From contig NZ_RAPR01000001.1 of assembly GCF_003610235.1 (NCBI RefSeq), positions 5,766,001-5,830,000 of the forward strand: DNA of 64,000 nt, in the 5' to 3' direction. Shown in pieces: positions 20,885 to 24,980 of this stretch (the first letter of the stretch is position 1; the number at the start of each line of letters is the position of its first letter). The translations under genes and the position numbers were made by a program. The DNA is from Catellatospora citrea. GTDB taxonomy: Bacteria; Actinomycetota; Actinomycetes; Mycobacteriales; Micromonosporaceae. The notes under the pieces are model-generated. The model was not told where the DNA came from. It did not search any database and was given only the letters and a program-made list of their open reading frames with translations.

Positions 20885-21534
20885 TCAAGATAATGATCGT
20901 GGACGACAACGACATCATCCGGCGCGGCCTGCGCACCATCATCGACGCGGCGGACGACCTGCGGGTGGTGGCCGACGCGGGCGACGGGCGCAGCGCGATC
21001 GAGGCGGCCCGGCGGGCCAGGCCGGACATCGCGCTGGTGGACATCCGCATGCCGGGCATGGACGGGCTGACCGCCACCCGCCAGCTGCTGGAGCTGGACA
21101 CCCCGCCCCACGTGATCATCCTGACCACGTTCAACACCGACGAGTACGTCGACGAGGCGATCCGCTCGGGGGCGGCGGGCTTCCTGCTGAAGGACTCGCC
21201 GCCCGAGGAGCTGCTGCGGGCGCTGCGGGCCGTGCACGAGGGCCACGCGATGCTAGACCCGGCGGTCACCCGGCAGGTCATCGACGCCATCGCCGACCAG
21301 GCGCCGCGGCTCAGCCCGCAGGAGAAGGCACAGCTGGAGTCGCTGACCGCGCGGGAGGTCGACGTGCTGCGGCTGATCGGCCGGGGACTGTCCAACGCCG
21401 ACATCGGCGCGGAGCTGTTCATGACCGAGGGCACGGTGAAGGGTTACGTCAGCGCGATCCTCACCAAACTGGCCGCGGAGAACCGGGTCCAGGCCGCCCG
21501 GGTGGCCTACCGGGCGGGCCTGGACAGCGGGTGA
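20881..21534 (+). CDS. NarL/LuxR-type response regulator
   Basis: 217 residues. The receiver domain has the acidic pair VDDND, phospho-acceptor Asp54 (LVDIRMPGMDG), the switch Thr in ILTTF and Lys in LLKDS. The LuxR HTH is TAREVDVLRLIGRGLSNADI followed by EGTVKGYVSAILTKL. It is the partner of the preceding kinase. A hairpin at 21589-21604 follows. Confidence 0.94.
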   Translation: MIKIMIVDDNDIIRRGLRTIIDAADDLRVVADAGDGRSAIEAARRARPDIALVDIRMPGMDGLTATRQLLELDTPPHVIILTTFNTDEYVDEAIRSGAAGFLLKDSPPEELLRALRAVHEGHAMLDPAVTRQVIDAIADQAPRLSPQEKAQLESLTAREVDVLRLIGRGLSNADIGAELFMTEGTVKGYVSAILTKLAAENRVQAARVAYRAGLDSG

Positions 21535-21588
21535 GACGGGAGCGCCCCCGCCGGGAAGGGGGACGCCGAGGCGCTGCCTGTTCATGGG

Positions 21589-21604
21589 GGTGACCGGGGT
21601 CACC
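21589..21604 (+). terminator. Hairpin after the two-component operon
   Basis: GGTGAC (21589-21594), CGGG loop, GTCACC (21599-21604), followed by an AT-rich CGCGAATATTTCATC. A short stem but a tetraloop, 55 bp after the response regulator stop and just before the MarR promoter. Confidence 0.4.
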
Positions 21605-21623
21605 GCGAATATTTCATCAGGCG

Positions 21624-21684
21624 TTGACTTGGTGCCGAGGCGGCGCGTTAAGCTTGCGTTAACGCATTAGTTGCGAAGTCGCAA
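21624..21684 (+). promoter_or_regulatory. MarR-gene promoter with two palindromic operators
   Basis: TTGACT (21624-21629), about 19 bp, TAAGCT (21649-21654) make a promoter. It is overlaid by GCGTTAACGC (21656-21665, perfect palindrome, with a half-copy GCGTTAA at 21645-21651) and TTGCGA-AG-TCGCAA (21671-21684). MarR proteins bind such short palindromes at their own promoters, so repression by the MarR gene just downstream is likely. AAGGGAGG precedes the GTG start. Confidence 0.55.
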
Positions 21685-21699
21685 GCAAAGGGAGGTGCC

Positions 21700-22176
21700 G
21701 TGGAGCCGCAGCACGACCAGCTCGCCGAGGACATCGGGCTGTTCCGGCGCGCGCTCATCCCGGACTTCCTGCTCGGCCTGCTCCGCAGGATGGGCGACGA
21801 GGAGCCCAACCTGCTGCAGATGGCCAGCCTCTACGCCCTGGACGCCGGACCGCACCCCATGGTCCGAGACCTCGCCGAGCAGGTCGGCCGATCGATGTCG
21901 GTGACCAGCAGGCTGATCGACCAGATGGTGCGGCGCGGCTGGGTCGAGCGCGCGGAGGACCCGGTCGACCGGCGGGCCAAGCGGCTGCGCATCACCCCGG
22001 CCGGGCGCGACTACCTGCGCGCGTTCGAACGCGTACGGGCGCAGGCGCAACGGCAGCTGATGACGTACCTGACCGACGACGAGCAGCGCCAGGTGAGCGA
22101 GGCCATGGCGCTGCTCGGCAAGGCTTCCAGGAGACATCTCGATGAGCGAGCACAGGGAGCAGATCATGTGGCCTGA
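21700..22176 (+). CDS. MarR-family transcription regulator
   Basis: 158 residues. The winged HTH runs from PMVRDLAEQVGRSMSVTSRL, IDQMVRRGWVERAEDPVDRR (wing) to KRLRITPAGRDYLRAFERV. GTG start with GGGAGG. It is upstream of, and on the same strand as, the rph-like gene and probably controls it. Odd: its last 12 codons (DERAQGADHVA) lie in the first of two tandem 71-nt units that carry mini-ORFs in another frame. Confidence 0.92.
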   Translation: MEPQHDQLAEDIGLFRRALIPDFLLGLLRRMGDEEPNLLQMASLYALDAGPHPMVRDLAEQVGRSMSVTSRLIDQMVRRGWVERAEDPVDRRAKRLRITPAGRDYLRAFERVRAQAQRQLMTYLTDDEQRQVSEAMALLGKASRRHLDERAQGADHVA

Positions 22177-22216
22177 GACCCGGGCCGGAGCCGAGCGGAA
22201 CGAGGTGCGGGCATGA
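22142..22216 (+). CDS. Mini-ORF 1 of a coupled leader chain
   Basis: 24 codons, MSEHREQIMWPETRAGAERN then EVRA, overlapping the end of the MarR gene in another frame. Its TGA overlaps the next ATG as ATGA. Whether it is translated is not shown by sequence, but the frame is intact and the spacing to the next unit is exactly coupled. No similar protein is known to me. Confidence 0.35.
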   Translation: MSEHREQIMWPETRAGAERNEVRA

Positions 22217-22283
22217 GCGAGCGCAGCGAGCGAATCATCATGACGATGACTCGTGCCGGAGCCGAGTGCGGCGAGGCGACGGT
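22142..22283 (+). repeat. Tandem pair of 71-nt units
   Basis: Unit 1 starts ATGAGCGAGCACAGGGAGCA at 22142, unit 2 starts ATGAGCGAGCGCAGCGAGCG at 22213, and the rph-like gene starts ATGAGC at 22284: exact 71-nt steps. Shared blocks are ATGAGCGAGC, GATCATG/AATCATC and GCCGGAGCCGAG; identity overall is about 65-70% by eye. A related block (GAGCGGAACGAGGTG) is seen at 16573-16605 before egtB. The units are both repeats and open reading frames. Confidence 0.75.
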
Positions 22284-22287
22284 ATGA
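22213..22287 (+). CDS. Mini-ORF 2 of a coupled leader chain
   Basis: 24 codons, MSERSERIIMTMTRAGAECG then EATV, with its TGA overlapping the ATG of the rph-like gene at 22284 as ATGA. GAGGTG lies 5-10 nt upstream of its ATG and GCGAGGCGACGGT lies before the next, weak ribosome sites that make coupling plausible. The alternative is that the units are only a repeated ribosome-loading sequence. Confidence 0.4.
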   Translation: MSERSERIIMTMTRAGAECGEATV

Positions 22288-24980
22288 GCGCGACGTTGAC
22301 CCCTACGACCGACCTTGTCCTCGACTTCGCCGACATCGACGCCGGGATGCTGCCGGTGGTCGGCGGCAAGGCCGGCAACCTGGGCGTGCTGACCCGGGCC
22401 GGGCTGCCGGTGCCGCCCGGACTGTGCCTGACCACCGAGGCGTACCGGCTCGTCGCCGACACCGCGCACCTCGACGAGATCCACGAGGAGCTGGCGCGCA
22501 CCGCGCCGACCGACGTGCCCGCGCTCACCGCGCTGGCCGGGCGGGCGCGGGCGGCGCTGCTGGCCGCCCCGATCCCGGCGGGCATCGCCGCCGCGGTCGC
22601 GGCCGGGTACGCCCGGCTCGGCGACGACGTGCCGGTGGCGGTGCGCTCCTCGGCCACCGCCGAGGACCTGCCGTTCGCCAGCTTCGCCGGGCAGCAGGAC
22701 ACCTACCTCAACATCGTCGGCGGGGACGCCGTGCTCGACGCCGTACGCCGCTGCTGGGCGTCGCTGTGGACCGACCGGGCGGTGGTCTACCGGGCCACCC
22801 ACGCCATCGACAACCGCACGGTGCGCCTGGCCGTGGTCGTGCAGCGGATGGTCGACTCCGCCGTGGCCGGGGTGCTGTTCACCGCGAACCCGGTGACCGG
22901 GCGCCGGCGCCAGGCCGTCCTCGACGCCAGCCCCGGCCTCGGCGAGGCCGTCGTCTCCGGCGCGGTCAACCCCGACCACTTCGTGGTGGACACCGTGAGC
23001 GGGGTCATCCTCGACCGGCGGTTGGGGGACAAGCGGCTGGCCGTCCGGTCGCTGCCCGGCGGCGGCACCGAGCACGTCACGCTGCCCGCGGGCGGCGACA
23101 CCGCATGCGTCACCGACGCGCAGGTGCTCGCGCTGGCCGCGCTCGGCGACCGGGTCGAGGCGCACTACGGCGCGCCGCAGGACACCGAGTGGGCCATCGA
23201 CGGCGACGGGGCGCTGTGGCTGACCCAGGCCCGTCCCGTCACGACACTGTTCCCGCTGCCGGCGCACGCCCCGTCGGCCGGTGCGGACACCCGGGCCTAC
23301 TTCTGCTTCAGCGTCGCCCAGGGCCTGTACCGTCCGATCACGCCGATGGGCATGGCCGCGTTCCGGGTGGTCGCCTCGTCGGCGGCGCGCTTGTTCGGCT
23401 TCGGCGTCGCCGACCCGCTCGCCGGTCCGGCCGTGTTCGCCCCCGCCGGGCAGCGCCTGTTCATCGACGTCACCACTGCCGTACGCAGCACCATGGGCCG
23501 CACCCTGATCCCGAAGATCCTCGGGGTCATGGAGGCCCGCTCCGCGGCGATCTTCCTGGAGCTGTTCGAGGACCCGCGGTTCACGGTGACCCGCCGCTCG
23601 CGCCTGCCGTTCGTGCGCGTCGTCGGCCGGACGGCCGCGAAGCACCGGGTGCCGGTCCGGCTGGTGCAGGCGCTGGCCAAGCCGCAGCGCGGGCTGGCCG
23701 CGGTGGACCGGGTCGGGGCCGAGCTGGAGAGCCGGCTCGCCGCGCCGGAGCGGGCCACCGCCGCGCAGCGGCTGGACTTCGTCGAGCAGGTGCTCGGCAC
23801 CGAGGTCATTCCGCTGCTGCCCCGGGTCATGCCGGTGGCCGCGGCGGGCTTCGCCGCGCTCGGCATCGCCGACCGGCTGCTCGGGGCCGACGCCGCGGTC
23901 GGCGACGTGCAGGCCGTGCTGCGCGGCATCCCGCACAACGTCACCACCGACATGGACCTGGAGCTGTGGCACCTGGCGGTCCGACTGCGCGCCGACGACG
24001 CCACGGCGCGGCTGTTCGGCACGGCGAAGGTGGACGAGCTCGCGCACCGGTACACCGCCGGCACCATGCCCGCGCCGGCCCAGGCCGGGATCGCCGAGTT
24101 CCTGGCGCGGTACGGCCACCGCGCCGTCGCGGAGATCGACATGGGCATGCCGCGCTGGTCCGACGACCCGCGCTACCTCCTCGGCGTGCTCGCCAACTAC
24201 CTGCGGACGGACCCGGCAGACGGGGCCGCGCTGACGCCCGACCGGCTGTTCGCGCAGGGCGCGGCCGAGGCCGAGGCGATGGTGGACACCCTGGCCGGCC
24301 GGGCCGCCAAGCGCAGCCGCCTGCGCGGCAGGCTGGTGCGCGCCATGCTCGGCCGGGCGCGGCTGCTGGCCGGGGTGCGCGAGCTGCCCAAGTACTACAT
24401 GGTGCGGATCATCGCGGCCTGCCGGCAGCAGGTCGCCCTGGTCGGGGCCGAGCTGGCCAAGGAGGGGCGGCTCGCCGAGGCCGACGACGTGTTCTTCCTC
24501 GACCTGGCCGAGACGCGCGCGGCACTGTCCGGAACGGACCAGCGGGAGCTGGTCGAGGCGCGCCGCCGGGCGTACGACGAGGAGCTGCGCCGCCGTCACA
24601 TCCCGCGGGTGCTGCTGTCCGACGGCACCGAACCGTCGGCGAAGGCGGCCGCGGGCACCGCGGACGGCGCGTTGACGGGCACGCCCGCCTCGGCCGGGAC
24701 GGTCACCGGCACCGCCCGGGTGATCCTCGACCCGGTCGGCGCGCACCTGGAGCCCGGCGAGATCCTCGTCGCGCCGTCCACCGACCCCGGCTGGACCCCG
24801 CTGTTCCTCACCGCGGGCGGCCTGGTCATGGAGATGGGCGGGGCGAACTCGCACGGGGCCGTGGTCGCCCGCGAGTACGGCATCCCCGCGGTGGTCGGCG
24901 TCCCCGACGCCACCGCCCGCATCACCACCGGCCAGCAGATCACCGTCGACGGCGCCACCGGCACCATCACCCTCACCTGA
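22284..24980 (+). CDS. Rifampin-phosphotransferase-like PEP-utilising enzyme
   Basis: 898 residues. An ATP-grasp PPDK_N domain (about 10-320: VVGGKAGNLGVLTRAGLPVP, AVRSSATAEDLPFASFAGQQ, VVVQRMVDSAVAGVLFTANP), a long middle domain, and a C-terminal swivelling His domain with catalytic His857 (GGANSHGAVVAREYGIPAVV). This plan and these motifs match rifampin phosphotransferase (about 870 residues), which uses ATP to phosphorylate the drug's ansa-chain hydroxyl. Related proteins of unknown substrate exist, so resistance is inferred. I find no rifamycin-associated element upstream; control by the adjacent MarR protein is more likely. ATG 22284 chosen from the ATGA overlap. Confidence 0.85.
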   Translation: MSATLTPTTDLVLDFADIDAGMLPVVGGKAGNLGVLTRAGLPVPPGLCLTTEAYRLVADTAHLDEIHEELARTAPTDVPALTALAGRARAALLAAPIPAGIAAAVAAGYARLGDDVPVAVRSSATAEDLPFASFAGQQDTYLNIVGGDAVLDAVRRCWASLWTDRAVVYRATHAIDNRTVRLAVVVQRMVDSAVAGVLFTANPVTGRRRQAVLDASPGLGEAVVSGAVNPDHFVVDTVSGVILDRRLGDKRLAVRSLPGGGTEHVTLPAGGDTACVTDAQVLALAALGDRVEAHYGAPQDTEWAIDGDGALWLTQARPVTTLFPLPAHAPSAGADTRAYFCFSVAQGLYRPITPMGMAAFRVVASSAARLFGFGVADPLAGPAVFAPAGQRLFIDVTTAVRSTMGRTLIPKILGVMEARSAAIFLELFEDPRFTVTRRSRLPFVRVVGRTAAKHRVPVRLVQALAKPQRGLAAVDRVGAELESRLAAPERATAAQRLDFVEQVLGTEVIPLLPRVMPVAAAGFAALGIADRLLGADAAVGDVQAVLRGIPHNVTTDMDLELWHLAVRLRADDATARLFGTAKVDELAHRYTAGTMPAPAQAGIAEFLARYGHRAVAEIDMGMPRWSDDPRYLLGVLANYLRTDPADGAALTPDRLFAQGAAEAEAMVDTLAGRAAKRSRLRGRLVRAMLGRARLLAGVRELPKYYMVRIIAACRQQVALVGAELAKEGRLAEADDVFFLDLAETRAALSGTDQRELVEARRRAYDEELRRRHIPRVLLSDGTEPSAKAAAGTADGALTGTPASAGTVTGTARVILDPVGAHLEPGEILVAPSTDPGWTPLFLTAGGLVMEMGGANSHGAVVAREYGIPAVVGVPDATARITTGQQITVDGATGTITLT

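Follow-up and report, generated by a model that had tools for sequence, protein, structure and literature searches.

In Catellatospora citrea, two very short reading frames lie between the gene of a MarR-family regulator and that of an enzyme of 898 residues, and they raise the question of what they do there and whether they belong to this junction only. The window, i.e. the whole stretch of DNA analysed, comprises 64,000 nt. As stated by the first-pass annotation of this DNA, the ATG codons at 22142, 22213 and 22284 are spaced by 71 and 71 nt, and its description of a chain of 71-nt mini-ORFs with ATGA overlaps, running into an 898-residue enzyme and overlapping the MarR gene in another frame, proved exact. 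Unit 1 is translated as MSEHREQIMWPETRAGAERNEVRA and unit 2 as MSERSERIIMTMTRAGAECGEATV. Both have 24 codons in 71 nt, the TGA of each overlaps the following ATG, and they are chained in this way to the 898-codon enzyme ORF starting at 22284. The two units are identical at 50 of 71 bases. Within the window the 21-mer at 22213 occurs once at up to three mismatches (0 occurrences in 100 shuffles), and an Rfam 15 search of 21400-22500 gave no match at E up to 1.

Features of the junction between the MarR gene and the enzyme gene (positions of the window)
Feature	Position	Strand	Remarks
MarR-family regulator gene, 158 aa	21700..22176	+	stop codon within unit 1, 32 nt beyond its first base, in a different frame
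AGGAG, Shine-Dalgarno-like site	22129..22133	+	8 nt upstream of unit 1
Mini-ORF 1, 24 codons + TGA	22142..22216	+	unit 1 = 22142-22212
GAGGTG, Shine-Dalgarno-like site	22202..22207	+	in unit 1, 5 nt upstream of unit 2 start
Mini-ORF 2, 24 codons + TGA	22213..22287	+	unit 2 = 22213-22283
Left hairpin of unit 2	22213..22235	+	GC pairs alternating with tandem GA mismatches, GNA loop, R1-Y23 closure (here A-T)
Right hairpin	22250..22288	+	9-bp stem CTCGTGCCG/CGGTATGAG, GA/GA internal loops; predicted to pair the enzyme start codon
GAGG, Shine-Dalgarno-like site	22273..22276	+	in right hairpin, 7 nt upstream of enzyme start
Enzyme, 898 aa	22284..24980	+	PPDK_N and PEP-utilizers domains; PEP-synthase/rifamycin-phosphotransferase-like

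The enzyme had been called rph-like. It does resemble rifamycin phosphotransferase (Rph), but it scores 627.9 bits, under the curated NCBIfam cut-off of 999, so that "rph-like" is a fair label while antibiotic inactivation is not established. Its closest named relatives are all from Catellatospora (75-96% identity).

Compared by BLAST with its own genome (9.33 Mb), the 146-nt stretch covering both units has at least 45 matches, itself included (40 of 157 candidates were scored; best non-self match E 2.6e-15). The core pattern with at most one mismatch was found 38 times in this genome, against 1 match for the reversed control. BLAST and core pattern combined yield 48 separate loci, some of them a partial unit. 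In 46 of the 48, the unit is in sense orientation and has a co-directional gene on either side; 45 of these were counted by a GC3-based script and L044 by a separate check. The exceptions are L018, where no sense gene was found on either side, and L022, which lies just beyond a gene end and has a neighbour that is convergent by eye. We read the genes flanking units as hisD-hisC, purK-purE, argF-argR, opcA-6PGL, rimI-tsaD, RNase PH and ABC transporters, all names being our own assignments from the translations. The strict pattern is present in 76 of 300 genomes of the family (own genome included) and in 15 of 44 genera; the reversed pattern scored zero in the same table. A slightly shorter pattern was found in 6 of 394 genomes of a class-wide sample, the own genome being one of the six. 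The other five genomes contributed seven loci. Three of these (L093, L094 and L096) overlap the upstream gene at exactly -4, and L095 is broken by eye. Judged by their sequence, the two mini-ORFs are thus members of a dispersed repeat family at gene junctions, in the own genome and in its relatives. The suggestions of the first-pass annotation that MSERSER-like units precede many genes of the family, and that they are dispersed, are borne out by these counts. The special role in antibiotic inactivation that it also considered is not, as the units equally precede what we read as hisC, purE, argR, the gene of 6-phosphogluconolactonase and transporter genes, and the enzyme is only Rph-like.

To describe the units, we detected them by motif without consulting the frame, at 36 own-genome loci and 86 loci of relatives among the matches listed; 12 own-genome loci found later are left out of this set. 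After 12 of 142 left anchors were dropped for want of a right end, 130 units remained (38 own, 92 from relatives); being related copies, they do not count as independent events. Their length is 3n+2 (2 modulo 3) in 125 of 130, with five main size classes of 68, 71, 74, 77 and 80 nt and single cases of 62 nt (a shifted anchor within another unit) and 83 nt. In 122 of 130 the stop of the unit ORF overlaps the next start as RTGA, and four units begin with neither ATG nor GTG. Frame 0 is free of stops in 127 of 130, compared to 2 and 87 in the remaining sense frames. As the antisense frames are also often open (80, 33 and 118 of the 130 units), an open frame by itself is weak support in DNA of this kind; the main evidence is the length rule. 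The annotation had proposed that ribosomes are handed along the chain, a reading against which random frameshifts and stops would have spoken; these are not seen, and the 3n+2 rule and RTGA overlaps suggest the hand-over as the best reading. Among the strict-pattern matches listed, the matched part is 3n+1 by eye with three exceptions.

Five units break the 3n+2 rule. Two of them, L030 and L135, appear to represent a single locus in orthologous form, and in L132 two units are read through as a single 141-nt frame that again ends in an overlap. The stop of the upstream gene coincides with the RTGA of the first unit in 80 of 121 locus-strand entries, which include one spurious weak anchor (L029 minus). 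In 34 entries it precedes the unit by 3-90 nt, and in 7 it falls within the unit or beyond it. At L030 and L135, in two species, even shorter ATGA-linked ORFs trail the frameshifted unit (of 4 and 6 codons in L030, by eye). A simulation of the relay succeeded on 103 of 104 real arrays, but also on 2759 of 3120 shuffled units (88%). It therefore discriminates little, and we set it aside as proof of a relay.

Comparison of junctions revealed both empty and filled sites. Between the MarR and enzyme genes, C. tritici lacks a unit and C. bangladeshensis lacks a complete one; a single unit is present in C. sichuanensis, C. vulcania and C. coxensis, a fused one in C. paridis and two in the own genome. 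In Catellatospora sp. KI3 the sequence upstream of the enzyme differs. The enzyme start of C. tritici, an empty site, directly follows a site matching AGGAG 22129-22133, and for this reason AGGAG was probably the enzyme's own ribosome-binding site originally and would now feed the chain. hisC had a match in 61 of 61 genomes of the family, and 30 hisD-hisC loci were fetched, 29 of them readable. In all 29, hisD terminates in RTGA, and in 27 that RTG directly opens hisC (an empty -4 site); the own genome has a 68-nt unit in between. Dispersed copies together with empty sites imply gain of units. Neither a mobilising enzyme nor a fresh insertion was found in the genomes compared. Since genera differ in unit type at common junctions (71 versus 80 nt, each type being genus-specific), their sequences point to repeated insertion at the same junctions or to homogenisation of copies within genomes.

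Such genus-specific types were seen at one junction each for L082/L077 versus L112, L062 versus L140, L024 versus L063 and L083 versus L101. At the hisD-hisC junction of L253 (G019) there is a different mini-ORF of 56 nt (3n+2), whose start resembles the hisC start as if locally duplicated; local duplication of this kind is a possible route by which relay cassettes originate. In L239, the unit and the downstream gene have identical, unusual first 24 bases (by eye), which suggests that cassettes gave rise to the N-termini of some genes (MSERSE...), or vice versa.

Besides frame and length, the units share a potential for folding. Both motifs, GAGCGNAGCGAG, can be folded symmetrically into a hairpin with a GNA loop, in whose stem tandem GA mismatches alternate with GC pairs; GNA mini-hairpins are specially stable. 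Among 122 distinct units, the symmetric positions at offsets 9-18 form Watson-Crick pairs in 870 of 1220 cases, compared to 221-449 if slid by 1-3. Shuffling of partners between units, in which kinship is not kept, gave P < 0.001 at offsets 10-15 and 19; offsets 16-18 did not reach this level. The first base of the next start codon corresponds to offset 15, where T-A was found 78 times, C-G 30 times and other combinations 14 times (n = 122). The downstream start base and its partner are thus Watson-Crick in 108 of 122 units versus 66.9 expected from partner shuffling among copies that are related, again without keeping kinship. The R1-Y23 closure of the left hairpin (A-T 82, G-C 31, other 11; n = 124) is Watson-Crick in 113 of 124 versus 70.6 expected, with the same limit on the shuffle. 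The covarying columns were not fixed by the strict search pattern. Among the columns compared, none is associated with the start base more strongly than the predicted partner in either size group (association V 0.83 and 0.87 in the shorter type, 0.87 and 0.86 in the longer type, where the runners-up reach 0.79 and 0.82). Two old lineages alone would not yield the predicted partner as top associate in both groups. At one orthologous junction, L012 and L114 differ from L128 by a double change in the hairpin. Over six stem offsets, G-T pairs exceed A-C mismatches by 35 to 6, and therefore the coding strand is the folding strand. A further covariation, at offset 19 of the right hairpin, links an internal stem base to a base beyond the element, the fifth of the downstream gene (P < 0.001).

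The predicted probability of the start codon being unpaired has a median of 0.02 at the 122 cassette junctions versus 0.48 at 105 cassette-free -4 junctions (P = 3.3e-13). Predicted openness of the Shine-Dalgarno region is 0.50 at cassette junctions versus 0.36 at cassette-free ones. In the window, the enzyme start is predicted to be closed (0.00), and the starts of unit 1 (0.63) and unit 2 (0.89) are predicted to be open; the prediction for the enzyme start at the empty site of C. tritici is 0.51. Because the start of unit 2 is open and mini-ORF starts are generally unmasked in the predictions (median 0.52, n = 134), a gate is supported here only at the last start; folding predictions thus support gating for the last step and not for the first. 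Folding energies of whole units are unremarkable and not significant (z -0.98, -1.62, 0.76 and -1.50); the hairpin pieces alone gave z -2.05 (right) and 0.33 (left).

From location, orientation, frame-keeping length, empty sites and hairpin covariation, we infer a relay and a gate. We consider it probable that the units are tandem copies of a dispersed mobile coupling cassette, similar to the mycobacterial interspersed repetitive units (MIRUs), that combines a mini-ORF relay with a start-codon gate. Insertion of the cassette would take place at a start-codon RTGA, in most cases one that overlaps an upstream stop, and would replace one stop/start hand-over by two or more. A ribosome would enter at unit 1, here probably via the old enzyme site AGGAG, translate mini-ORF 1, terminate at its TGA and restart on the overlapping ATG of mini-ORF 2, from which a second hand-over would lead to the enzyme start. 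This last start codon would be held in the hairpin with its Shine-Dalgarno region partly open. Translation of the mini-ORF would melt the hairpin, so that the next gene would be expressed chiefly in the wake of a translating ribosome. A point against feeding from the MarR gene is that its stop lies within unit 1, so that MarR termination may not supply unit 1.

Why an insert at such a site should keep a frame may be explained by the cost of gaps. When six gene pairs were studied with reporters, reinitiation was nearly abolished by a gap of about 20 nt, according to excerpts of PMC10666635, and a 71-nt insert without a mini-ORF should therefore harm coupling. The length rule would then be explained, because only a relay-carrying insert would be tolerated at a coupled junction. 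Other studies, as cited in excerpts of PMC12548453, observed coupling up to +25 nt without loss and a 3- to 10-fold loss at about +40, and since coupling persisted over these wider gaps the argument from gap length is weakened. More broadly, and tentatively, the cassette may be a portable gate plus relay made of RNA, in which the hairpin of a mobile repeat locks the start codon of any gene behind it, compensatory change matches the lock to ATG or GTG, and the mini-ORF unlocks it. Throughout actinobacterial operons, accessible starts would thus become translation-dependent, and insertion or retention would show a strong bias towards translational junctions. This wider reading may well hold, but we stop short of calling it probable.

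The annotation had offered a peptide-sensing leader as another possibility, and a leader or attenuator for the enzyme gene would suit short ORFs located directly upstream of that gene and downstream of a regulator gene. For 18 orthologous unit pairs of equal length, which share species and are not independent, pN was 0.127 and pS 0.116 (pN/pS 1.09), with 43, 85 and 32 changes at the three codon positions; read in other frames, the same pairs gave pN/pS of 1.30 and 0.39. As far as these sequences tell, the unit peptide is not conserved, while frame and RNA shape are kept. The units of L006 have an extra base in the left motif, so that the middle is read in a shifted frame (by eye), and still total 71 nt, and the fused unit of C. 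paridis, 116 nt long and open for 39 codons, is still 3n+2; because of these cases, the frame appears to matter and the residues do not. The peptide itself would then have no role. Like units also precede unrelated genes, and on this diversity and the pN/pS of 1.09 we reject a peptide sensor, which we regard as highly improbable. If a gene start had been duplicated in tandem by chance, with no broader significance, the local duplications that may have occurred in L239 and L253 (both by eye) would be parallels. This reading is ruled out by copy number, given dozens of dispersed copies in the own genome and a strict form present across the family against a reversed pattern that is absent from the table, and its probability is next to negligible. 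An element acting on DNA or transcript without translation, such as a promoter, a protein-binding site or an RNA stability element, has a parallel in the MIRUs of senX3-regX3, which can drive senX3-independent expression of regX3 according to excerpts of PMC4213456. Such an element would leave 3n+2 length and stop/start overlaps unexplained, and we consider it very unlikely.

The hairpins could instead serve movement. The units would then be a selfish repeat whose hairpins act in single-stranded DNA, as in IS200/IS605 or REP elements, with the R-Y pairs as guide-to-target pairing, an open frame that is merely harmless in operons, and no gating. Empty sites and tandem arrays show that gain and multiplication are possible, the covarying bases sit exactly at the RTGA of each end, the stem covaries even with a base beyond the element (offset 19), and the excess of G-T over A-C fits single-stranded DNA as well as RNA. 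REP elements with RAYT and the short derivatives of IS200-IS605 are likewise short dispersed repeats with hairpins. The cassette differs from these by its frame-keeping ORF and its position at sense junctions, and no Y1 transposase was detected in the copy-rich genomes G037, G058 and G073. By a crude gene call, intergenic RTGA sites outnumber -4 junctions in the window by about 125 to 4; the concentration of copies at junctions (46 to 2) in spite of this argues against movement alone, and may reflect either targeted insertion or decay elsewhere with retention at junctions. Predicted burial of the start codon next to an open Shine-Dalgarno region also suits a translational role. On balance, we regard a purely selfish repeat as unlikely, though worth keeping in view, and prefer relay and gate.

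A Y1 transposase was considered as mobiliser. In 12 hand-picked genomes Y1_Tnp was found in 6, namely in 6 of 6 with at least 9 strict copies versus 0 of 6 with at most 7. A further search found it in 6 of 28 genomes (two of the 28 were already among the 12), and the correlation failed there. The six Y1 loci with 1.5 kb around them contained only single motif matches with one or two mismatches; none had the exact motif or was flanked by repeats, and the candidate was rejected.

MIRUs, reportedly described by Supply et al. in 1997, are oriented so that they are translated in the direction of the two genes around them. Termination-reinitiation at -4 (NTGA) gene overlaps is said to have been studied by Huber et al. 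The cassette has the MIRU-like traits of a small NTGA-overlapping ORF, sense direction, start-codon insertion with empty sites and variable tandem number. Excerpts of PMC12548453 describe MIRUs as mobile, inserted at start codons and containing an ORF that is coupled to the following gene at -4 nt; on this description both repeats are short, dispersed and often in tandem, and the cassette may likewise be mobile. Units of MIRU04, of 77 and 53 bp in excerpts of PMC2453075, are also 3n+2. Hosts of MIRUs are given as M. leprae and the M. tuberculosis complex only in excerpts of PMC4213456 versus many mycobacteria in those of PMC12548453, and the Micromonosporaceae cassette differs in having other hosts. 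It also differs by its covarying start-codon hairpins, which the excerpts of PMC12548453, PMC2453075 and PMC4213456 do not mention for MIRUs. A published MIRU primer site had no exact match in 396 genomes of the genus taken for Mycobacterium; with one mismatch it was found in 17 genomes, and in the 12 of these that were inspected the match read by eye as other coding DNA. The cassette is therefore called MIRU-like and not MIRU, by analogy of architecture as described and not of compared MIRU sequence.

With termination-reinitiation at -4 (Huber et al.; excerpts of PMC10666635), the cassette has in common the stop/start geometry and presumed re-use of the ribosome, but its junction is a portable, multiplied repeat. 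In phage f1 VII/IX and MS2 coat/lysis, known for translational coupling by RNA unfolding (excerpts of PMC12548453), a downstream start is likewise closed by RNA structure and opened by upstream translation. Those are single native gene pairs, whereas the cassette repeat would carry the structure to many junctions. Leaders of bicistronic design (cited in PMC12548453) also use a short ORF to bring the ribosome to a coupled gene; they are engineered, while the cassette is a natural dispersed repeat. The architecture is already known from mycobacterial MIRUs. Searches of the open-access literature brought up neither a hairpin gate with a covarying start base nor this repeat family in Micromonosporaceae and, scattered, in other actinobacteria. 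The hairpins and the likeness to MIRUs are points beyond the first-pass annotation.

What MIRUs do to their operons becomes testable through the many copies, the empty sites and the double hairpin change at an orthologous junction, which allow one to ask whether a mobile repeat preserves, or tightens, the coupling of the genes that it separates. The cassettes offer themselves as natural coupling modules, and annotators should be aware that relay cassettes may account for some of the tiny genes or MSERSER-like N-termini in these genomes. MIRUs are well-known typing markers. In L066 (G088), the minus strand carries at 1189-1577 a tandem array of five 77-nt units that are nearly identical, with five seed matches spaced by 77 nt, a natural VNTR at a single junction.
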